From Thermoplasmatales archaeon SW_10_69_26 (GTDB taxonomy: Archaea > Thermoplasmatota > SW-10-69-26), in the NCBI GenBank assembly GCA_003009755.1, contig PXUB01000022.1, forward strand, positions 16,963-80,962: 64,000 bases of DNA. Reading direction: 5' to 3'. A program made the translations under genes and the position numbers. Shown in pieces: positions 1,316 through 13,313 of the stretch; the stretch's first letter is position 1, and every line of letters starts with the position of its first letter. The notes beneath the pieces were generated by a model that worked only from the letters and a program-made list of their open reading frames with translations, was not told where the DNA came from and searched no databases.

Positions 1316-1347
1316 CCCCTGGAGATATGTTTAAGAGCCTCCAGGGG
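1316..1347 (+). promoter_or_regulatory. TATA-type promoter inside a perfect inverted repeat
   Basis: Arms CCCCTGGAG (1316-1324) and CTCCAGGGG (1339-1347) flank an AT-rich stretch holding TTTAAG (1330-1335). A start site about 25 bases downstream of the TATA falls at about 1358, next to the GTG at 1359, so the uptake operon is probably transcribed as a leaderless mRNA. The palindrome around the TATA looks like an operator for a dimeric repressor; this is inference. Confidence 0.5.
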
Positions 1348-1358
1348 TGGGCCGGGGC

Positions 1359-2450
1359 GTGGTGGCCGCAGCGCGCCCGCTGGCGTTCGCCCTCCTCGTC
1401 GTCCTGACCCCCGTCGCCGGATGCATGGGGGACACCGGCGAGCCCGAGGGCGTCATCGTCACCAGCCAGCCCCTGGTCGACGCCTTCCACGAGCTCGATC
1501 GGGCCGACCAGCTCGCCGGCGTCCCCGATTGGGCGATCGTCGACGAGCCGCCCGCCGCCGACCGGGTCGGACGCCCGTTCGTGATCGAGGCCGAGGAGGT
1601 CGTCCGACGGGAACCGGCCCTCGTCCTCGACCAACCCCATCCCCTCGTCACGGGGCCCTCGCGCGAGGCGATGGCGACCGGCGTCCAGCAGGCCGGCATC
1701 GGCTACGAGAAGCTTCCGAGCGAGCCCGCGCTGGGCACCGTCGAGGCCACGCTGGCGGCCGCCGGCGAGGCTACCGGCACCGATCACACCGACGCCTGGC
1801 AGCAGATCCGATCGGACCTGGCTGACCTGAACGAGACGCTGGCCGACCAGCCGCGTCCCAGCGCGCTGTTCCTGTTCCCCGCCGGCCTCGTCGCGGGCAC
1901 CGACACCGACGTCGACCTCATCCTCGAGCTGGCCGGCATGGAGAACGCCGCCCGCGAGGCCGGGCTCACCGGCTACGCGCAGATCACCGACGAGGCCGTG
2001 CAACGCACCGACGTCGACCTCGTCATCGCGACGGCAACGATGCACACCACGCCCGAGGAGATCGCCGGCCGCCCGATGTTCGCGGACACCGCGATCGAGG
2101 ACAGCCCCGAGCGCGTGCTCGTCGTCGACCCCAGCCGAACCACGCGCCTGGGCCCCCACGTGGCCGAGGCCGCCTCCCAGCTGGCCGCCTGGAGCCACGA
2201 GGAGATGCCCGGGCCGCGCGTGAGCCCGACGCTGGACCCCTACGAGGTCCACGCCTGCGAGCCGGTCGACGTCGACGTCGACGCACCGAACGCGACCGTC
2301 ACCCTCCTGGGCGAGACCCACGACCCCGGCACGGTCACCGTGCCCGACGTCGCGGAGGGCCACTACCGCCTGACGGTCGAAGCCCGCGACGACACGGGCA
2401 CGGCCACCACGACGACGATGCTCACCGTGGAGGGATCGGATTGCGCCTGA
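1359..2450 (+). CDS. Metal-chelate (cobalamin/heme/siderophore-type) ABC transporter substrate-binding lipoprotein
   Basis: Residues 1-21 form a hydrophobic signal ending in the lipobox VAGC, so the protein is probably a lipid-anchored receptor on the outer face of the membrane. The body (about 30-280) has the BtuF/HmuT-type class III binding fold, with the family's helical backbone region and an HPLVTGPS-type loop. The last 75 residues form a small beta domain resembling PKD/Ig modules, an unusual addition. GTG 1359 was chosen because it lies at the start site predicted from the TATA; GTG 1347 or 1362 are alternatives. It is first in a four-gene operon with a permease and an ATPase. The ligand (B12, heme or ferric siderophore) cannot be read from sequence. 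Confidence 0.8.
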   Translation: MVAAARPLAFALLVVLTPVAGCMGDTGEPEGVIVTSQPLVDAFHELDRADQLAGVPDWAIVDEPPAADRVGRPFVIEAEEVVRREPALVLDQPHPLVTGPSREAMATGVQQAGIGYEKLPSEPALGTVEATLAAAGEATGTDHTDAWQQIRSDLADLNETLADQPRPSALFLFPAGLVAGTDTDVDLILELAGMENAAREAGLTGYAQITDEAVQRTDVDLVIATATMHTTPEEIAGRPMFADTAIEDSPERVLVVDPSRTTRLGPHVAEAASQLAAWSHEEMPGPRVSPTLDPYEVHACEPVDVDVDAPNATVTLLGETHDPGTVTVPDVAEGHYRLTVEARDDTGTATTTTMLTVEGSDCA

Positions 2451-4078
2451 CGCCGCTCGTGCTCGCCTGCCTGCTCGTCTCCCCGCCCGCCCTCGGCCAG
2501 GCCTGGTCGCAGGAGAACGCCGACCCGGCCAACACCGGCCGCCTGGACAGGGCCGGCCCCACGAGCCTGGAGGACGCCCAGTTCACGCCCGTCGACGACC
2601 AGGTGCTCACCCAGGTCACCGAGGGCCCGGCCGGGCTCGCCCTGGCCGGCTCGCTGGGTGGGACCGTCTACGCCGTCGACGCCAGCGGCGAGGTCGTCTG
2701 GCAGGCCGACGTCGCCGACGAGATCCGCACCGCGCCTCTCTGGACCGGCGAGGTCGTCGTCGTGGTCCCCCGCGGCGACCGGGTTCACGCCTTCACCCCC
2801 GAGGGCGAGGAGGCCTGGACGGTCCCGATCGCCAACGACCGCGGCGCCACGCTCGTCCGCATGGCCAGCCCCGTCGAGCACCCCAGCGGCGACGTCATCG
2901 TGGGCACGATGGACGGGACCGTCTACCGCCTCACGCCGCAGGGCTCGACCGTCTGGACGACGACCATCGGCGAGGACGACGCCGTCGAGGCCACTCCCGC
3001 CATCACGCCCGACGGCGACGTGATCGCCGCCGCCTTCGAACCCGGGCGAGAGGGGCGAGGCTTCCTCGCTCGCCTCGACGCCGACACGGGCGAGCGCACC
3101 TGGCAGCTCGACATCGGGTCCCAGGTCGTCGGCGCCCCCGCCGTCGTGGCCGACACCGTGCTCGTGCCCCTGCGCGACGGCAACGCCGTGCAGGCTCGCA
3201 GCCTCTCCGACGGCTCGCTGATCTGGGAGACGGCCTTCGACTCCCGCGTCCCCGCCTCACCCTCACTGCACGAGGGGCTGGCGATCGTGGGCGACATCCG
3301 CGGCACGGTGCGCGCCCTGGAGGTCTCCGGCGGCAAGATCGCCTGGGAGTTCAACCCCCTCAGCGACGATCCCGACGTCGAGCTGGGCGGCAGCGGCCGC
3401 TACACGATCGCCGACAGCCTCGCCGTCGACGACGAGGGCGTCGCCTGGGTTCCCTACTGGGTGTTCGAGGCCGGCTGTTGCCCCCCCTCCGACTCGGTGC
3501 GCAGCCCCATCTACCGCCTCGACGCCGACGACGGCGAGATCCTCGACCGGCGCTCGGACGCCAAGGCCAACCACGGACCCGCCCTCCACGCCACCGGCGT
3601 CTGGACCGGCAGCGACGAGCAGGGCGTCCGCTCGTTCCCGCTGGATCCCAGCCTCCAGCTCGACGCCCGCACCGACGCGGGCCAAGCCCGGTTGATCGTC
3701 AACACCGACGCGACCGGCGACTGGCGGGTCGCGACCGGGGACCGCTCGCTGGACGAGGGCCAAGGCCGCCCGCCGACGGTCTCCGGCTACGATCTCGACC
3801 CCGGCCAACACAACCTGACCGTCACCGTCGACGACCTCGCCAGCCAGGCCACCGTCGAGATCGAGGCCGACGACGGCGACGACGATCCCGCCCGCCCCGA
3901 GGACCAAGACCCCTCGGCGCCCACGGACGATGCCGAGCCGGAGCCCGAGCCCTCAGGCGAGGACGAGGAGCCCAACACCTCCGAGGGCGGCGCCGAGGAC
4001 CCCCAACCGGCCCCGCTGGCCGCCTGGGCCGCCTGGCTCGCCATCGGGCTCGCCGCCGGGGTGCGACAACGTGCGTAG
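2441..4078 (+). CDS. Secreted PQQ-type beta-propeller protein with C-terminal membrane anchor
   Basis: The TTG start overlaps the end of the binding-protein gene by 10 bases. Residues 1-19 are a signal peptide. Repeated blades of the GTVYAVDASGEVVW and GTVYRLTPQGSTVW type show a PQQ/YncE-like propeller over about residues 45-400. It is followed by a beta domain, an Asp/Glu/Pro-rich linker (about 485-520) and a hydrophobic helix near the C terminus. It is probably tethered outside the cell. Its place between receptor and permease genes suggests a helper role in capturing or presenting the ligand. No quinoprotein dehydrogenase active site was recognised, so an enzyme function is not claimed. 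Confidence 0.8.
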   Translation: MRLTPLVLACLLVSPPALGQAWSQENADPANTGRLDRAGPTSLEDAQFTPVDDQVLTQVTEGPAGLALAGSLGGTVYAVDASGEVVWQADVADEIRTAPLWTGEVVVVVPRGDRVHAFTPEGEEAWTVPIANDRGATLVRMASPVEHPSGDVIVGTMDGTVYRLTPQGSTVWTTTIGEDDAVEATPAITPDGDVIAAAFEPGREGRGFLARLDADTGERTWQLDIGSQVVGAPAVVADTVLVPLRDGNAVQARSLSDGSLIWETAFDSRVPASPSLHEGLAIVGDIRGTVRALEVSGGKIAWEFNPLSDDPDVELGGSGRYTIADSLAVDDEGVAWVPYWVFEAGCCPPSDSVRSPIYRLDADDGEILDRRSDAKANHGPALHATGVWTGSDEQGVRSFPLDPSLQLDARTDAGQARLIVNTDATGDWRVATGDRSLDEGQGRPPTVSGYDLDPGQHNLTVTVDDLASQATVEIEADDGDDDPARPEDQDPSAPTDDAEPEPEPSGEDEEPNTSEGGAEDPQPAPLAAWAAWLAIGLAAGVRQRA

Positions 4079-4967
4079 GCGCTGGCTGGCCGGCCTCGTC
4101 GGCCTCGCCATCGTGACCGTCGGCACGCTCGTCGCCCGCGTCGTCGTCTTCCCTCGGCCCCTCTCGATCGAGGTCGCGGGCACGATCGTGAACCTACGAG
4201 CCCGCATCGCCGTCGCCGGGCTCGTGATGGGTGCCGGGTTCGGGCTCGCCGCCGTCGGCGCCCAAGCCCGCGCCCGCGAGATCCGCATCGACGCGACCCT
4301 CGCCGGTCCCGCCTGGGGCGCCCTGCCCGGCCTGTTGCTCCCCGTGCCGGTCGCCGGGCAAGCGATCGCGTGCCTGGTCGGCGCCGGCCTCGTCGCCTGG
4401 CTGACGCGCCGCTCGGCGGGCCTGTCGGCCACGCTGACCCGCGGCGTCGCCGTCGCGGGCGCCGTCGTCGGCCTCGCCGCGCTGGGCCTGTTCGTCGGGC
4501 CCGGGCTCACCCCGACGACCGCGACCGCGTTCCTGCACGCCTCCCTGGGCGGCGCCCTCACCCAAGCGACCTGGCTCCGCACCGCGATCGGGGGAGCGCT
4601 CGTGCTCGGCGCGCTCGGCCTCGCCTGGGCGCGCTGGCGCCAACTGGCGCTGGCCCGCGCCGGCCTGGACGAGGAGGCCTCCGCGGCCGCACTCGTCACC
4701 GTGCTGGCCTCCGCCGGCGCCGTGCTCGTCGCCGGCGTCGTGGCCGGGCTGGGCCTCATCGCGACCGCGATCGCCCGCCCCATCGTCGGCGAGGATCCCC
4801 GCTTGGCGGCCCCAGGCGGCCTGGCCGCCGGCGCCGGCGTGGGGTTGGCCCTCGACGGGATCGGGCAAGCCCTCGCCTGGCCGGGCGAGCTGCCCGTCGG
4901 CGTGTTGACCTTGATCGTCGCGAGCCTGCTGCTGGCTCGGGAGGTGGTGCCCGCTGATCCGCGTTGA
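4071..4967 (+). CDS. FecCD/BtuC-family ABC transporter permease
   Basis: The 298-residue protein is almost entirely hydrophobic, with about eight to nine transmembrane stretches. It includes the family's early segment VAGLVMGAGFGLAAVGAQARA and the later GLIATAIARPIVGEDPR loop, which corresponds to the cytoplasmic coupling-helix region of BtuC-type permeases. GTG 4071 overlaps the stop of the propeller gene. It would form the channel for the ligand delivered by the lipoprotein. Family assignment is secure; the substrate is unknown. Confidence 0.85.
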   Translation: MRRRWLAGLVGLAIVTVGTLVARVVVFPRPLSIEVAGTIVNLRARIAVAGLVMGAGFGLAAVGAQARAREIRIDATLAGPAWGALPGLLLPVPVAGQAIACLVGAGLVAWLTRRSAGLSATLTRGVAVAGAVVGLAALGLFVGPGLTPTTATAFLHASLGGALTQATWLRTAIGGALVLGALGLAWARWRQLALARAGLDEEASAAALVTVLASAGAVLVAGVVAGLGLIATAIARPIVGEDPRLAAPGGLAAGAGVGLALDGIGQALAWPGELPVGVLTLIVASLLLAREVVPADPR

Positions 4968-5616
4968 GGAGCTGGGCGTCCGCCGCGGCCACGAACCCGT
5001 CCTGTTCGCCAGCGAGCTGACCGTCGGCGACGAGGTCGTGGCCCTCATGGGCCCCAACGGCGCCGGCAAGACCACGCTTTTGCAGACGCTGGCCGGTCAA
5101 CTGAACCACAGCGGCACCCTCGAGCAGGGTCCGACGGCGTTCCTGGGAGCTCGCCCGCCCGAGCCCGTCGACATGCAGGCCGTCGAGCTCGTGCGCGCCC
5201 ACGGCGCCGAGGACCCGCAGGCGTGGCTGGATCGCGTCGGGTACGAGGGCCCCGAGCTCGTCTCCCGCGGCAGCGCCGGCGAGCGCGCGCTCGTGGGTCT
5301 GGCCGGCGCCCTCAGCCGCGCGCGCGACCTGCTCCTCGACGAACCCTTCGGCCCGCTGGACCCACCCCACACCGCCCGCGTGTGGCCAAGGCTGGCCGAC
5401 CACGCCGAGGACCACGCCGTCCTGCTGGCGACCCACGACCCGACCGTCGCCGCCCGCGCCGACCGCGTCGTGCTCCTCGCCGGCACGATCGTGGCCCAAG
5501 GCCCGCCCCGCGAGGTGCTGGCCGAGGAGCCCTTGTCCGACTGCTATGGCGCCCCGGTCGACGTCGCCTGGACCGATCTGGGGCCCGTCGTGCGGGGCCG
5601 AGAGCGCTCCCATTGA
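4954..5616 (+). CDS. ABC transporter ATPase of the metal-chelate uptake operon, probable CTG start
   Basis: Walker A is GPNGAGKTT, the signature region is SRGSAGERALVGLAGAL, Walker B is LLLDEP, and the H-loop is ATHD. This is a compact BtuD/FecE-type ATPase of about 220 residues. No ATG, GTG or TTG lies in frame between the upstream stop (4912) and GTG 5038. Starting at 5038 would remove the N-terminal strand and A-loop that precede Walker A in the family. CTG 4954, which overlaps the permease stop by 14 bases, restores them. The signature motif is SAGER instead of the usual LSGGE/Q form. Confidence 0.85.
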   Translation: MIRVEELGVRRGHEPVLFASELTVGDEVVALMGPNGAGKTTLLQTLAGQLNHSGTLEQGPTAFLGARPPEPVDMQAVELVRAHGAEDPQAWLDRVGYEGPELVSRGSAGERALVGLAGALSRARDLLLDEPFGPLDPPHTARVWPRLADHAEDHAVLLATHDPTVAARADRVVLLAGTIVAQGPPREVLAEEPLSDCYGAPVDVAWTDLGPVVRGRERSH

Positions 5617-5955: not shown

Positions 5956-7983
5956 TCAGTCGAGGCGGGGCTCGAAGGGATCCACGTCCCACCAGACGTG
6001 CGTGGCGTGCGTGGCCGACCCCAGCGGGACCGGGCTGGCGGGCACGGCGGCGTCCCCGCCGCCGAGCTGGTCGTCCGCGACCGTGACGATCGCGGCCGCC
6101 GCCAGGCCGTCGCCCTCCAGCGGCTCGCCGGCGATCTGCCAGCTGCTCGTGAAGCCGCCCGTCGGCTCCCCGCACTGCGGCTGGAAGGCGTCCTCGATCG
6201 CGACGACGGGTCGGTCACCGGCGGCTCGGTCGATCGCATCCTGGACCACCGGGTCGGCCTGGTCGAGACCCTCGGAGAGCATCACGACGGCCGTCGGCTC
6301 GGCCACGACCCGCGTCTCGCCGGTCTGCGGGTTGGACAGCACACCGTCGGTGAGGCGCAGCGTGATGGCCAACCCGGTCGGGTCGGCGTAGCCGGCCCCG
6401 GTCGCGAGGTCGCCGATCGTGGTCCCCGACCGGAACGAGCAGCCCTCGCCCGCGGCGTGGTGGTCCCACAGGATCGGGTAGGCGCCGTGGTCCTCGATCG
6501 AGAAGACCTCCGAGCCGGGCGCCTGCTCGTAGTCGCCGTCGTCCTCGACGTCGGTGAACAGGCCCACGTGCCCGGTGACGCGCATGCTGGGGCGCGGCTG
6601 GTGGTCGGGCTCGGGCTCGGCGCCGGCAGGCGTGCCGAACCCGGCCGCGGTCCGGGTGACGTGCGCGTCGATCACGTTCACCCACGGGTCGGCCTCCTCC
6701 TCCCCGGTGGCCAGCGTCTGGCAGTCGGTCAGCGTGCGGTTCTCGGAGACCTCGTGGCTGGATTCGAGGATGCCCATCCACTCGTCGGCGTTGGGCTCGG
6801 GCTCGTGCGAGGTGACGGCGGGGCTGGCGGTCACGTTCTCGCCGGCCGGCGTGTCGGCCACGTCCGGCGCGCGTCCATCGCGCAGCGGACCCAGGCCGGG
6901 CACGTTCTCGGAGGCCTCGTCCCAGACGAAGGGCACGCCTTGGGCCGGCGTGTCGTCGCTGGGCGGCTCGTAGATGTCGAGATCGTGGGCGAGGAACGCA
7001 GTGGAGCTCGTATCGAAGCCCGGTTCGGCGGCGCCGCACTTGTCCGGCGGGCTCGGCGCGACGACGCCGTGCCAGACGGCGAAGTGGTGGGCGCTGTTCC
7101 AGGCGTCGGACAGATAGCAGGCGGCGTGCCACATCGGGCACATCGTCGTGCCGCGCCAGGCCGGCTGCGCCTGACCGCAGACGTAGGTCTCGGCCTCGCA
7201 GGGCTCGTTCTCGTCCTCGCCGGTGCCCATCCAGTCCAGCTCGACCTCGCAGCGGCCGGCGTCGGGCGCGTGCGTGCCGAGGTGGGCCTCGGGCGTGAAC
7301 GCGCACACCTTGGCGGTAGCCGTCGGGTCGAGGCCGCCGCCGTTCTTCTCGTCGGTGACGATCGTCGACAGGCGGTCCTCGTCGACCGGGTCGCCCTCGT
7401 CATTGGTGACGAAGGCGACGAAGCTCGTGTCGGTGACCGGCAGCAGCCAGCCTTGGCCGGCCGCGTCGTAGGCCTGCATCGGCGAGACCGCGTACAGGTT
7501 GCCGCCGTAGGCCTGCGTGCCGCCGTCGTCGACCTCCCCGGGAGTTGGCGTCAGGCCGACGCTGGCGCCGGCCTCGTGCACGGCGTCGTAGGTGCCCGGG
7601 CTGTTGCACCAGGGCTCGCACGCCGTCGTCCCGTACAGGCCGACGTAGGTGGCGAACTGCAGGTCGACGGTGATGGCCTCGTCGGCGCCCGCCGCCTGGT
7701 CGGGCGGACTCGTCGTATTCATCTCGGTGCCCTGGTTGTACACGAGCTCGCCGCAGAACCCGTCGGCGGTGAGCGTTCGGGCGCCCTCGGGCTCGGCGCA
7801 GCCGGTGTCCGTCCCGCGGTCCCAAAGCTCCTCGTCGGTGTCGGCCGGCGGCTCGGCCTTCGAGAGACCGGCGGTGTCCTCGGCGCCGGCGCTGAGGTGG
7901 AAGGCCACGCCGGTGGGGGCGAGCAGCGCAGCGACGATCGCAGCCAGCAGCGCGAACCGGATCGGGGATCGGTCTCGGGGCAT
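5956..7983 (-). CDS. Large secreted Cys/His-containing protein coupled to the iron permease
   Basis: The 675-residue protein starts with a positively charged N terminus and one hydrophobic signal segment (about 8-28), then continues as an acidic soluble protein. It contains about a dozen Cys residues in the first half, for example in ACEPWC, CGQAQ and MCPMWHAACY contexts, and several His residues. No known domain was recognised. Its ATG overlaps the stop of the FTR1-chelatase gene by one base (TGATG), so the two are translationally coupled and likely act together outside the cell, perhaps in iron or heme handling. That role is inference from context. Confidence 0.7.
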   Translation of the reverse strand: MPRDRSPIRFALLAAIVAALLAPTGVAFHLSAGAEDTAGLSKAEPPADTDEELWDRGTDTGCAEPEGARTLTADGFCGELVYNQGTEMNTTSPPDQAAGADEAITVDLQFATYVGLYGTTACEPWCNSPGTYDAVHEAGASVGLTPTPGEVDDGGTQAYGGNLYAVSPMQAYDAAGQGWLLPVTDTSFVAFVTNDEGDPVDEDRLSTIVTDEKNGGGLDPTATAKVCAFTPEAHLGTHAPDAGRCEVELDWMGTGEDENEPCEAETYVCGQAQPAWRGTTMCPMWHAACYLSDAWNSAHHFAVWHGVVAPSPPDKCGAAEPGFDTSSTAFLAHDLDIYEPPSDDTPAQGVPFVWDEASENVPGLGPLRDGRAPDVADTPAGENVTASPAVTSHEPEPNADEWMGILESSHEVSENRTLTDCQTLATGEEEADPWVNVIDAHVTRTAAGFGTPAGAEPEPDHQPRPSMRVTGHVGLFTDVEDDGDYEQAPGSEVFSIEDHGAYPILWDHHAAGEGCSFRSGTTIGDLATGAGYADPTGLAITLRLTDGVLSNPQTGETRVVAEPTAVVMLSEGLDQADPVVQDAIDRAAGDRPVVAIEDAFQPQCGEPTGGFTSSWQIAGEPLEGDGLAAAAIVTVADDQLGGGDAAVPASPVPLGSATHATHVWWDVDPFEPRLD

Positions 7984-10262
7984 CAGGTGTCAGTCTCCGT
8001 CTCGAAGAGGGGGTCCATGGCGTCGACGATCGTGTCGACTTGGGCCTGAGCGCGCGTCTCGTGACCGAACGCGCTCGAGGTGATCGTGATCTCCACGTTC
8101 TGCCGGGTGAGGTGGGTCTGGTAGTCGGCGTCGTAGTGGGGGGCCTGGCGGGGATCGAGGTCGTAGCTGAGCCGGTGGTTGACCAGGTTGTCGAACCCGT
8201 CGCCGGGCAGCTCGTAAGGCACGTCGAGCAACAGCTCGTGGCCCTGCTTGCTGGCGTTCTCGACCGCCTCGGTCGGCGAGTAGATGCCGTCGTCGGGGTC
8301 GTCGGCGCCGGCACCGTACACCTGGTGGATCGAGGTGTTCGGCGCCAGCGAGCGGTTGTCGAGCGCGGCCTCGACGTTGGCGAACATCGCCATCGTCTGG
8401 TTCACGTAGGGATCCTTGCGGTCCCGGCACTGGCTGTCCAGATCGGGGTCGGCACCGTGATGGGTGAGGGACAGCCAGACGTCCTCGCTCTGCGGGTAGG
8501 CGGTCAGCTTGTCGGCGATCGCGTCGGCCATGCCCTGGGCGAAGGTGTCCGTCAGGCCGCTGGGGCCGGCCTCGAGCACGCGGCCCTCGTAGCCGTGCTC
8601 GTCGAGGGCCTCGTGGAAGGCCTTCTCCTTCATGCACTCGTTCATGATGTCGCTGTGCAGGTGGCTGGTGTAGGCGTCGACGATCACGTCGACGTCGGCC
8701 TCGACCAGCTGCTCGGCGCTGGCGGAGACGCTCTCGTCCCTCGGATCGACCATCGGGCGGATGTGGTGGGCGCGCTCGACGACGAGCTCGCCGTCGAAGC
8801 GCTCGTCCAGCGTCTGCTCGATGCGGTCGAGCACCTCGGTCTTGGCCTCGTGCATCTGGCTGGCGTTCTCCATCTGCCGGTAGTCCTTCCACGCGCCCAG
8901 ACCGGCCGCCTCGAGGATGTCGGGCTCGCCCAGCCCGGGGCCGCCGGGCATCACGTACATGCCGTCCACGGCGGGCACCTGCTGACGGTCGGGGACCGGG
9001 CTGCCGACGTAGGTGGCCGGCCCGGCGTGGTGCTCGAGCCAGGCGTCCATGTAGTCCGGCATCGGGCGCGGCTCGTTCGCGTGGGGACGGTCCTCGTCGA
9101 CGAGCACCGTGCCCTGGTCGATCGCGAGCAGCTCTTCGAACCCGAGCTGGATCAGCAGGTTGCGGGTGAACTCGGCGAACTCCACGTACGTCGTCGCGTT
9201 GTACTCGAGGGGCTCGCCGTGGGAGCGAAGCATGACGCCCACGGTCGCGTCGTCGGGCAGCTCCTCGCCGGTCGGCGCCTCGTCGCCGTGGGCGGAGGGA
9301 CCGTGGTCGTGGCCGGTCGCCGCCGTGCCCAGGCCCTCGACGGGGTCCTGGGCGGCCATGCCGACCGTCGAGAAGGCGAGCACGAGCGCGAGCGCGACGG
9401 CGCCGACGCGGCCGGGCCGCAGCTGGCGGCCCTGCGTCGTCGCCGTGGTGAAGAAGCCCTGCTGGTAGAGGAAGGCGCCGCCGGCGATCGCGAGGTACCC
9501 AAGGTAGGCCAGCGCCTGGTACAGGGTGGGCGCGGCCGTGTAGCCGACGGCGGCGTGAAGGATGCGGCCGAGGACGGAGTCGGGCGCCAACAGCCACGAG
9601 GTGTCCCACAGGGCCGCCTGCGGGGCCAAGAAGCCGAGCTCGGTGAGCGCTTCGACGGCGTGCGTGAGCAGCATCGCCGCGACGACGAGCAGGAAGGCGC
9701 CCGTGACCTGGAAGAACCGCTGCAGGTTCACGTGCCGGCTGGCGCGCAGCACGAGGTACACGAGGCCGGCGCTGACGGCGAAGCCGACCGCGCCGCTCCA
9801 CAGGAGGTCGAGCATGGCGTGCTCGGTCGCCAGCGTCGCGTAGAACAGCACGGTCTCGAGGCCCTCGCGGACGACGCTCAGGAACGTGATGGCCACGATC
9901 GTGGCGACCGATCCCGCCGTCAAGGCCTCGCGGACCTGCTCTTTGGCCTCCGAGAGGACCTGGGTGGTGTGGCTCCACATCCAGAAGACCATGTAGGTCA
10001 GCGTGCCGACAGCCAACAGGATGGCCACCAGCTCGAACCAGGCGCCGTAGCCGCCCTCCTCGAAGGCCGTGAACAGGTGCTCGTAGATCAGCCAGCCCGC
10101 GCCCACGCTGGCGATCACGGCCGCGCCGAACCCGGCCCAGACGTGCTTGCGGACGTCGGGCCGACCCAGCCGTGACACCAGGCCGAGCAGGATGCCGGTG
10201 ATCAACAGCGCCTCGAGTCCCTCGCGGAGCGCGATGAGCGCGGCCTCGGTGACGAACGCCAT
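7983..10262 (-). CDS. FTR1/EfeU-type iron permease fused to a ferrochelatase-like domain
   Basis: Residues 1-270 are a polytopic FTR1 domain with both REGLE motifs (13-17 and 132-136), which bind iron in this family. Another hydrophobic segment (about 286-304) leads through a His-rich linker to a domain of about 400 residues (340-740) that reads like a class I chelatase. It starts VGVMLRSHGEP. It later has SLTHHGADP (598-606) followed by DPY (617-619), matching the family's HG-x-P...GDPY region. Near the end VPYELPGDGFD matches the P-x-F-x-x-D-H-x-E region, with Asp in place of the usual catalytic Glu. The fusion links iron transport to metal insertion into, or removal from, a tetrapyrrole. 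FTR1 is certain; the chelatase assignment rests on motif reading. Confidence 0.85.
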   Translation of the reverse strand: MAFVTEAALIALREGLEALLITGILLGLVSRLGRPDVRKHVWAGFGAAVIASVGAGWLIYEHLFTAFEEGGYGAWFELVAILLAVGTLTYMVFWMWSHTTQVLSEAKEQVREALTAGSVATIVAITFLSVVREGLETVLFYATLATEHAMLDLLWSGAVGFAVSAGLVYLVLRASRHVNLQRFFQVTGAFLLVVAAMLLTHAVEALTELGFLAPQAALWDTSWLLAPDSVLGRILHAAVGYTAAPTLYQALAYLGYLAIAGGAFLYQQGFFTTATTQGRQLRPGRVGAVALALVLAFSTVGMAAQDPVEGLGTAATGHDHGPSAHGDEAPTGEELPDDATVGVMLRSHGEPLEYNATTYVEFAEFTRNLLIQLGFEELLAIDQGTVLVDEDRPHANEPRPMPDYMDAWLEHHAGPATYVGSPVPDRQQVPAVDGMYVMPGGPGLGEPDILEAAGLGAWKDYRQMENASQMHEAKTEVLDRIEQTLDERFDGELVVERAHHIRPMVDPRDESVSASAEQLVEADVDVIVDAYTSHLHSDIMNECMKEKAFHEALDEHGYEGRVLEAGPSGLTDTFAQGMADAIADKLTAYPQSEDVWLSLTHHGADPDLDSQCRDRKDPYVNQTMAMFANVEAALDNRSLAPNTSIHQVYGAGADDPDDGIYSPTEAVENASKQGHELLLDVPYELPGDGFDNLVNHRLSYDLDPRQAPHYDADYQTHLTRQNVEITITSSAFGHETRAQAQVDTIVDAMDPLFETETDT

Positions 10263-10294: not shown

Positions 10295-10325
10295 TTAGGC
10301 TGACCTAAACCACGGGCCGATATAG
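10295..10325 (-). promoter_or_regulatory. Iron-box-like operator and TATA box of the iron operon
   Basis: On the minus strand a TATA element (10319-10325, GACTATAT context) is followed after about 20 bases by TTAGGTCAGCCTAA (10295-10308). This is a dyad with TTAGG/CCTAA arms like DtxR/IdeR-type iron boxes. The dyad covers the expected start site, the classic place for repression when iron is plentiful. Confidence 0.6.
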
Positions 10326-11295: not shown

Positions 11296-11667
11296 TCAGA
11301 TCGACTGCGCCCCCCAGCGTCCGATCAGGGCGCCGGCGAGGCAGGCGACGAGCGTGAGCGCGAGGTACCCGATCGCCCAGCCGAGGCTCCCGTCGCTGCC
11401 GAGGGCGACCGTCTCGTAGCTGAACGTGCTCATCGTCGTGAACGAGCCCAAGAACCCCACGCCCACGGCGGCGGTAGCGGCCGGCGTCACCCACTCCGTG
11501 CCGGGCTCGGTACCCAACAGCAGGCCGAGCAGGAAGCTGCCGAGCACGTTCACCGTCAACGTCCCCCAGGGCAGATCCCCGCGGGTGAGGAGCTCGCTGA
11601 TCCACCAGCGGGCGAGACCGCCGCCCGCCGAACCGGTCGCAACCCAGGCTGCCACGTGCCAATCCAT
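11296..11667 (-). CDS. crcB: CrcB/Fluc fluoride channel
   Basis: The 123-residue protein has four hydrophobic helices. It carries the family signature GFLGSFTTMSTFSYE and the NVLGSFLLGLLLG segment with the pore Asn. Fluc channels work as antiparallel dimers that let fluoride leave the cell. ATG 11667 gives the usual length; a longer open frame upstream lacks family similarity. Its 3' end converges on the crotonase gene with only four bases between. Confidence 0.9.
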   Translation of the reverse strand: MDWHVAAWVATGSAGGGLARWWISELLTRGDLPWGTLTVNVLGSFLLGLLLGTEPGTEWVTPAATAAVGVGFLGSFTTMSTFSYETVALGSDGSLGWAIGYLALTLVACLAGALIGRWGAQSI

Positions 11668-11848
11668 CGTCGTCTGCCTCGTGCCCTGCGGGGTCGGGCC
11701 TCGGCCGGGCCGGCGGTTCCCTCGGCCCCATCGCCCGACTCGTCGAGGCCGAGCAACGGCCTCAACGTTGCGGTCTCCGACGAGCTGCCCCGGTGGGTGA
11801 CCGAGGCCGACACGCCCTGTCCCTGCTTCGTCGGAGGTGGCGGTCCGG

Positions 11849-12265
11849 TCAGCCGTCCTCGGCCAGGGCCTCGTGTTCGGCGAGCAGCGCGCGGACCCGC
11901 CCTCGGATCTCGTCGCGCGTCTCGCGGTACTCGTCCAGCGAGTCCGGGTGGTCGAGGCTCCAGTCCGCCACGTCGTAGGGCTCGAACACCGGCATGGCGG
12001 CTTGCCCGCAGCCCATCGTGGCGATCGCGTCGGCGGCCTCGAGGTCCTCCTCGTCCACGGGTGTGCTCGCGTGGTCGGAGAGGTCGAGGCCGATCTCATC
12101 CATGACGGTCAGGGCCTTCTCGCGGACCCGACCCAGCGGGTCGGTGCCGCCGCTGAGGCACTCGACGTGGTCGGCGCCCACCTCCTCGCAGAACGCCTGC
12201 GCCATCTGGCTGCGCGCGCTGTTGCCGACGCACGCGAAGTACAGGCGGACGGGTTCGGGGCTCAT
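11849..12265 (-). CDS. arsC: Arsenate reductase, low-molecular-weight phosphatase type
   Basis: The 138-residue protein opens with the phosphatase P-loop CVGNSARSQMA containing the nucleophilic Cys and Arg. It has a second Cys in VECLSGG and a third in MGCGQ, as expected for thioredoxin-coupled ArsC proteins that pass a disulfide along. It reduces arsenate to arsenite. The start overlaps the aquaporin stop by four bases, placing it last in the arsR-aquaporin-arsC operon. Confidence 0.92.
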   Translation of the reverse strand: MSPEPVRLYFACVGNSARSQMAQAFCEEVGADHVECLSGGTDPLGRVREKALTVMDEIGLDLSDHASTPVDEEDLEAADAIATMGCGQAAMPVFEPYDVADWSLDHPDSLDEYRETRDEIRGRVRALLAEHEALAEDG

Positions 12266-13002
12266 CCGGCCACCTCCGGCTCGGTGTCGGCGGCGGTCTC
12301 GCTCGGTCGGGCCCGCGGCGTCCGCACGTCCTCGTAGTCGACCGTCCGCACAAGCTCGTAGCCGAACATCGCCGCGATCGATCCCACGACGGGGGCCGCG
12401 AGGTAGATCCACACCATCGACCAAGTGCCGGAGACGACGGCCGGTCCGAGGGTGCGGGCCGGGTTCATGCTGCCACCGGTCAGCGGACCCGCGAAGAGGG
12501 CGCCGATCGTGACGGCCAAGCCGATCGCCAGCCCGCCGGCGGCCTCGGGCACGCGGTCGTCGGTGGCGACGGCCGCGATGACGAACGCCAGCAGCGCGGT
12601 TGCCAGCGTCTCGGCCAGCACGGCGCCGGTCACCGAGAGCTCGGCGGCCGGCACGGTGGCGCCCAGCTGCCCCACCGGCCCCACCATGACGAGGAGCGTG
12701 CCGGCCGCGGCGGTGGCCCCCGCGAGCTGGGCCCCGATGTAGGTGGGCACCCGCCGCCAGGGGAAGTGCCCGATGGCGGCGAACCCGAGCGTGATGGCCG
12801 GGTTGAAGTGGGCGCCGCTGACGTGACCGAGCGCGTAAACCATCACGGCGATCGTCAACCCGAAGGTCCAGGCGACGCCGACGTGGGAGACGCTCGCGCC
12901 CGCCACGAAGCCATCCGCCACGATCGCCCCGCAACCGGCGAGCACGAGCGCGAACACGCCGATCGCCTCGGCCAGCTCGGCCCGCGGGTGCCGGCCGCCC
13001 AT
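12262..13002 (-). CDS. Aquaglyceroporin of an arsenic operon (AqpS-like)
   Basis: The 246-residue MIP-family channel has six hydrophobic helices and both NPA boxes, in HFNPAITLG and SMNPARTLG. It replaces the usual Acr3/ArsB pump in an arsR-arsC operon, an arrangement known from Sinorhizobium meliloti aqpS, where arsenite leaves by diffusion after ArsC reduces arsenate. The ATG overlaps the arsR stop by one base. The channel family is certain. The arsenite role comes from operon context. Confidence 0.9.
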   Translation of the reverse strand: MGGRHPRAELAEAIGVFALVLAGCGAIVADGFVAGASVSHVGVAWTFGLTIAVMVYALGHVSGAHFNPAITLGFAAIGHFPWRRVPTYIGAQLAGATAAAGTLLVMVGPVGQLGATVPAAELSVTGAVLAETLATALLAFVIAAVATDDRVPEAAGGLAIGLAVTIGALFAGPLTGGSMNPARTLGPAVVSGTWSMVWIYLAAPVVGSIAAMFGYELVRTVDYEDVRTPRARPSETAADTEPEVAG

Positions 13003-13313
13003 CAGCAACAGCCCTCCGCGCGGCAGGCCTCGGGGTCGCTGGCTTCGATGTGGTCGACCAGCCAGGCCCCCTCCTCGAGGAGATCGGCCAGCCGAGGGTG
13101 GGCCAAGCGGTACAGCCGCCGCTTGCCCTCGCGGTCGGCGACGGCCAGCCCGCAGTCCCGCAGCTCGGCCAGGTGGTGGCTGAGGTTGCTCTGCTCCTGG
13201 TCGGTGGCGTCCGCCAGCTGGGACACCGAGGCCGGGCCCTCCCGGGCCAGGTGGTGGAGCACCGCCAGCCGGGTCCCGTCGGCGAGGCACCGATAGAATG
13301 AGGCCTCGTTCAT
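13002..13313 (-). CDS. arsR: ArsR-family transcriptional repressor
   Basis: The 103-residue winged-helix protein has the recognition region SVSQLADATDQEQSNLSHHLAELRDCGL and a basic wing, REGKRRLY. The classic metal site ELCVCDL is absent; only one Cys remains there. A C-terminal CRAEGCC gives Cys97, Cys102 and Cys103. This resembles the C-terminal As(III) site of Acidithiobacillus ferrooxidans ArsR, so arsenite sensing through this tail is likely. It is first in the operon and probably autoregulated through the inverted repeat just upstream. Confidence 0.9.
   Translation of the reverse strand: MNEASFYRCLADGTRLAVLHHLAREGPASVSQLADATDQEQSNLSHHLAELRDCGLAVADREGKRRLYRLAHPRLADLLEEGAWLVDHIEASDPEACRAEGCC

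Follow-up and report, generated by a model that had tools for sequence, protein, structure and literature searches.

The locus described here raises the question of what a domain resembling ferrochelatase could do when it is attached to an archaeal iron permease. It was found in the window, a stretch of 64,000 nucleotides from Thermoplasmatales archaeon SW_10_69_26, and a preliminary description of this DNA had proposed that a single reading frame joins both parts. This is indeed the case, as the gene consists of one uninterrupted frame of 759 codons with zero internal stops, neither a separate stop nor a separate start is found between the domains, and GC3 is even at 0.94–0.99 over the entire frame including the junction. 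The encoded protein starts with a complete FTR1/EfeU domain, which is followed by an eighth transmembrane (TM) helix, a His-rich acidic linker and a C-terminal domain of 425 residues. The identical architecture was found in a second archaeal genome belonging to another order (G076, ‘Euryarchaeota archaeon’, contig JAHWKR010000022), with 38% identity between the two fusion proteins over 773 aa, i.e. over their full length, and we therefore rejected an assembly artefact as the source of the fusion. The gene and its parts are as follows:

7983–10262, minus strand: FTR1-chelatase fusion gene (759 aa, ATG start, stop codon at 7983–7985)
9468–10244, minus strand: FTR1/EfeU permease domain, residues 7–265 (PF03239, E 6.9e-33; seven hydrophobic helices)
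10212–10226, minus strand: first REGLE motif, residues 13–17 (from the sequence)
9855–9869, minus strand: second REGLE motif, residues 132–136 (from the sequence)
9351–9407, minus strand: predicted extra (eighth) TM helix, residues 286–304 (hydropathy and K+R per loop; helix 283–303 in the full-length model)
9258–9350, minus strand: acidic His-rich linker, residues 305–335, GHDHGPSAHGDE (from the sequence; pLDDT <50 over most of it)
7986–9260, minus strand: predicted ferrochelatase-fold domain, residues 335–759 (AlphaFold pTM 0.81; Z 24.5 to CpfC; profile match to 1ak1)
8892–9131, minus strand: family-specific insertion, about residues 378–457, with GxGxGExD at 441–448 (alignment with HemH)
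9219–9221, minus strand: H348, where B. subtilis has Tyr13 and the human enzyme Met76, on the metal side of the pocket (alignment)
8457–8459, minus strand: H602, counterpart of the catalytic His (H183 in B. subtilis, H263 in human), invariant in this family (alignment)
8190–8192, minus strand: D691, at the position of the catalytic Glu264 (human Glu343) (alignment)

The permease half shows the hallmarks of FTR1, with seven TM helices plus the eighth and with both REGLE motifs at exactly the positions that had been assigned to them, and the PF03239 score of the fusion protein (114.6 bits) lies above the curated cut-off of 25.3. With the EfeU equivalog model NF041756 it reached 178.4 bits, which is under the cut-off of 255, and judged by these profile scores the permease half is a member of the FTR1 superfamily and not a strict EfeU. 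The side of the membrane that the C-terminal domain faces, named as a point to be checked in the preliminary description, can be read from the charge distribution. Counting of lysine and arginine residues per loop from the N-terminus onward gave 0-4-0-2-1-3-1-3-0, which corresponds to 4/2/3/3 in the cytoplasmic loops and to 0 in the first 40 residues past TM8, and the proteins from G076 and G002 gave the same picture. Following the positive-inside rule, this distribution would place the C-terminal domain outside the cell, with the eighth helix turning the C-terminus outward and the N-terminus also being outside, in agreement with the export signals that stand-alone relatives carry (see below). 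The His-rich linker is also present in the G076 fusion and in the unfused FTR1 of G002, and in the full-length model (pTM 0.53) a flexible tether connects two domains, the contact between them not being modelled reliably.

The C-terminal domain starts near residue 335, close to the original estimate of a domain of about 400 residues beginning around 340, and the motifs LRSHGEP, THHGADP and PYELPGDGFD, which had been taken as chelatase signatures, are all present. By itself the domain gave no match in Pfam, including PF00762, and no PDB sequence match; three of its relatives pass the PF00762 cut-off (E 1.6e-13, 2e-9 and 9.9e-12) and stay under the hemH equivalog cut-off. A profile built from six domains matched the B. 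subtilis ferrochelatase (1ak1, E 2e-4), and in this match the invariant His falls on H183. This bears out the suspected kinship. The relatives also showed weak matches to CbiX and sirohydrochlorin nickelochelatase models, and two further matches of the window protein, a weak one to the aldolase 3q94 and one to CysD, were taken as chance. In the AlphaFold model, whose pLDDT is low in part of the insertion, the domain has the ferrochelatase fold, with ferrochelatases as best Foldseek matches (3e-11 to 1doz) and a VIA-align Z score of 24.5 to CpfC (9f0g/6sv3) over 293–297 residues at an rmsd of 3.2–3.3. SirB, CbiK and FetB, the last of which we take to be the same protein as IhtB, came next with Z 16–18. 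Thus, the predicted structure, too, agrees with the initial assignment. The catalytic His is conserved in 6/6 full-length relatives. At the Glu264 position the suspected Asp was confirmed by alignment for the window protein and is also present in four other relatives, Glu being found only in L026 and His in L007; the corresponding exchange in human ferrochelatase, E343D, has a significant effect on a step after chelation (PMC9133952). The insertion of about 80 residues with its GxGxGExD motif is located N-terminal to the RYxxIGG region, and GxGxGE is kept in six relatives. As the family forms its own group apart from four HemH sequences in the phylogenetic tree (10 sequences, support 100/100), we regard it as a sister family of the ferrochelatases and not as a member of HemH.

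To follow the distribution of the C-terminal domain, 389 genomes of the same phylum were searched, in which G000 is the genome of the window; five further genomes encode full-length relatives and one more encodes a fragment. Outside G076 all of these relatives are stand-alone proteins, with signal-like N-terminal segments in G142 (‘Thermoplasmata archaeon’ AUK189) and G093 and the lipobox LAGC in G151; in the G359 copy, the start of which is uncertain, no N-terminal export signal was identified. Two candidates were rejected. L010 (E 8e-4) was considered a chance match caused by low complexity, and L017 (G353) was judged to be a canonical biosynthetic ferrochelatase, whose neighbour looks like a protoporphyrinogen oxidase by sequence. 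Of 24 FTR1-containing genomes, only G000 and G076 combine the permease and the chelatase domain in one chain. A pattern scan of contigs from 84,980 species found only two relatives, a number that is no proof of rarity as strict motifs were used, and zero relatives were found in the viral contigs and plasmids searched. The FTR1 nearest to that of the window, from G002 (L054/L071), keeps the eighth helix and the His-rich tail and then ends, showing that FTR1 can work without the chelatase domain, which in G002 was either lost or never gained. An FTR1 tree of 11 sequences puts this unfused protein in a group with the window FTR1, nested within the branch of G076 (98/95 and 88/89), and in the domain tree the G151 lipoprotein and the G076 domain form a group (87/98). 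Two fusions could explain this pattern and, with equal likelihood, so could the loss or fission of a domain. The N-terminal parts of the remaining long FTR1 proteins that were looked at are unrelated. Long N-terminal, probably extracytoplasmic and perhaps EfeO-like domains are found in the FTR1 proteins L055 (G000:C38), L048 (G038) and L052 (G027).

The neighbours of the fusion gene are a secreted orphan, an ABC importer, an enoyl-CoA hydratase and others, with no match to the EfeO or EfeB families among the adjoining genes. The following features were assigned:

10295–10308, no strand assigned: DtxR/IdeR-type operator-like palindrome TTAGGTCAGCCTAA (perfect; 32 nt 5' of the start codon)
5956–7983, minus strand: secreted orphan protein, 675 aa, 14 Cys, pI 4.1 (co-directional; its start overlaps the fusion stop by one base)
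1347–2450, plus strand: lipoprotein substrate-binding protein of an ABC importer (Peripla_BP_2)
2441–4078, plus strand: secreted PQQ-type beta-propeller protein within the importer operon (family match)
3930–4967, plus strand: FecCD permease (PF01032, E 2.9e-7; true start probably further in)
5038–5616, plus strand: ABC ATPase (its best NCBIfam score, far under the cut-off, is with the model of a heme ABC transporter ATP-binding protein)

DtxR-type proteins bind TTAGGT...CTAA sites. The palindrome TTAGGTCAGCCTAA is present as a single copy within the window with 0 expected from 100 shuffles, about one occurrence being expected by chance if the pattern is loosened to tolerate two mismatches, and similar palindromes were found ahead of the G076 fusion gene (GTTTAGGACCTCCTAAAC) and ahead of the G329 FTR1 (TTAGGCTAGCCTAA). 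No operator was found in the region upstream of the ABC importer. Iron-related genes also accompany stand-alone relatives, as the gene order in G142 is DtxR, FeoA, a second FeoA-like gene, FeoB, a small membrane protein and then the domain gene, and in G239 it is chelatase fragment, FeoA, FeoB and DtxR, with the FeoA calls in both genomes made by eye. The secreted orphan, for which no Pfam, NCBIfam or PDB sequence match was found, is a probable partner of the fusion protein. Among the components of the nearby importer, the ATPase and the binding protein, which has the heme-binding proteins 2r7a and 5khl among its weak PDB matches, resemble those of haem importers most, with low scores. The position of the beta-propeller gene between the importer binding protein and the permease is unusual.

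We propose that the protein is an external demetallase, which would remove iron from scavenged haem and feed it to FTR1, or to FeoB in the relatives, and we give this reading an even chance of being correct. The FTR1/EfeU permease would be located in the membrane, with the eighth helix and the His-rich tether holding the ferrochelatase-fold domain on the outer face, where it would clamp environmental haem or a different iron porphyrin. Protons for the ring could then come from H602 and D691, which share one face of the pocket, the iron would exit via the opposite face on the H348 side, and the tether and the REGLE motifs might relay it inward through FTR1, so that a ferrochelatase would in effect be run backwards as a demetallase or dechelatase. 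The fusion would be made under iron shortage via a DtxR-type repressor, and the secreted domain of anaerobic relatives would serve FeoB in its place. This model is supported by the fusion in two orders, the fold, the invariant His, the predicted outside topology, the export signals, the Feo/DtxR linkage, the operator-like palindromes, the importer next door that resembles haem importers and the haem genes of the hosts described below; the porphyrin substrate, the direction of the reaction, the iron transfer to FTR1 and the regulation are inferred, with haem as the substrate suggested by the context. Fe(III) is usually regarded as the cargo of FTR1, ferrochelatases work with Fe(II), and neither a reductant nor a ferroxidase for this Fe(II)/Fe(III) handling was identified. 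It is possible, although we would rate it slightly below an even chance, that the proteins represent an earlier undescribed family of archaeal extracytoplasmic class II chelatases that take the iron out of haem with the ring unbroken and pass it straight to the attached FTR1, or to FeoB in anaerobic relatives, the fusion then being a single-polypeptide machine for both steps.

The replacement of the catalytic Glu by Asp in most of the family is a counterpoint to this model, and the variation between Glu, Asp and His would also fit a binding domain. In the strongest rival reading catalysis has been lost, and the domain acts outside the cell as a receptor for iron or haem, or as an iron chaperone, and gathers metal at the mouth of FTR1, as EfeO does in EfeUOB, with no demetallation of the porphyrin. 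Such a role would also agree with the fold, which is common to binding proteins as for example FetB from P. gingivalis, and with the His-rich tether, which the G002 FTR1 keeps alone. We nevertheless consider it rather unlikely, as the catalytic His is invariant despite a family-internal identity of only 24–47% and such a strict conservation suggests chemistry.

For a domain acting on porphyrins outside the cell, the haem metabolism of the hosts becomes important. G000, a draft genome with 95% completeness, encodes a haem-copper oxidase (COX1) and gave no ALAD, PF00762 ferrochelatase or AhbD match, and the class-mates G001, G002, G014 and G038 have COX1 with ALAD not being detected; all of them look like aerobic haem auxotrophs. 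G076 possesses its own true HemH (1.9e-88) and ALAD apart from the fusion, and in G142, G093 and G239 neither COX1 nor ALAD was found, gene absences being uncertain throughout as the genomes are drafts or MAGs. A biosynthetic ferrochelatase role is therefore unlikely, as G076 has a separate HemH and no haem pathway was detected in G000, and from the host pattern the porphyrin substrate, if any, would come from outside in most hosts. The partner is FTR1 in two genomes with COX1 and FeoB in two without it, which from four cases only is suggestive of a split that follows the presence of COX1.

The same pattern could also fit a chelatase working forward outside the cell, which would insert iron into scavenged metal-free porphyrin so that the ABC importer could take in haem for the haem-copper oxidase of the auxotroph. 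G000 combines COX1 and the undetected haem pathway with an adjoining haem-importer-like ABC system, insertion is the natural direction of ferrochelatases, and P. gingivalis grows on PPIX and iron (PMC13227078). The fusion to an iron importer and the FeoB linkage in genomes without COX1 and ALAD fit iron uptake better, however, and together with the ALAD and HemH that G076 has of its own they make the forward reaction improbable. There is a similarly small chance that the substrate is a different metal tetrapyrrole, such as a cobalt or nickel corrin-type ring or siroheme, or another metal, with the iron linkage being secondary: the weak CbiX and nickelochelatase matches of the relatives point in this direction and FecCD-type importers also carry corrinoids, but structure and profiles are nearest to HemH/CpfC and the linked transporters and regulators are of the iron type. 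That an ordinary biosynthetic ferrochelatase was fused to the permease on its cytoplasmic side is largely refuted, even if the domain is the sole ferrochelatase-like protein found in G000, by the undetected ALAD and AhbD in this genome, the predicted outside topology, the clade apart from HemH and the true HemH in G076.

Returning to the external demetallase, the comparison with known systems supports other analogies than the one made at first. The preliminary description had pointed to EfeUOB and other FTR1 systems, and the likeness holds for a permease with two REGLE motifs that is fed by an external domain or partner; in contrast to these systems, the external part is here a ferrochelatase-fold domain in the same chain and EfeO/EfeB are not among the neighbours. 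The link of EfeB to the removal of iron from heme, which was part of that analogy, is disputed, as far as the title of a paper in the reference list of PMC12583661 tells. HmuS with FeoB and IhtB would be better analogies. In Bacteroidota the membrane-bound chelatase homologue HmuS removes the iron from heme and the freed iron enters via FeoB (PMC12583661, PMC6460266), and HmuS and BtuS share with the proposed model a membrane-bound chelatase homologue from which iron is passed to an importer. HmuS differs in being a protein of about 165 kDa from class I (CobN/ChlH type), stated to be unrelated to ferrochelatases in evolution and structure, and in the absence of a permease fusion, whereas the window domain has a class II fold and its partner is a fused FTR1 or, in relatives, a neighbouring FeoB. 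No CobN-type family match was found for the window protein and none is among the structures listed, which is not proof. IhtB, a surface protein of P. gingivalis, is a putative reverse ferrochelatase (PMC6173696, PMC13227078), and like the periplasmic CbiK of Desulfovibrio it offers an extracytoplasmic class II chelatase fold (Z 16.5). Both are bacterial, about 260 residues long and free of a transporter fusion, and the window domain is nearer to HemH/CpfC (Z 24.5 vs 16.5) and carries the insertion of about 80 residues. With HemH and CpfC (PF00762) it shares the fold, the catalytic His and the general layout of the pocket, but it belongs to a separate clade, has Asp in place of Glu264 and the insertion, is predicted to be outside, is not tied to haem synthesis and is fused to FTR1.

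The proposed function would resemble that of HmuS/FeoB and IhtB but with a class II chelatase fused to the permease, and no description of an FTR1-chelatase fusion or of a coupling of extraction and import was found in the literature searched, although such an absence is not proof. The release of iron from haem without oxygen-dependent opening of the ring has only recently been pinned to one enzyme class, the class I chelatase HmuS. If the proposed function is true, the fusion would be a second, unrelated solution derived from the ferrochelatase fold, one in which a single archaeal protein carries out both extraction and import. It would also offer a clean test of a natural reverse action by a ferrochelatase relative, and it points to aerobic archaea that seemingly need haem from outside. 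Beyond the fusion gene, positions 11296–13313 (minus strand) encode a CrcB-like protein, an arsenate-reductase-like phosphatase, a MIP channel and an ArsR regulator, which together resemble an arsenic-resistance set.
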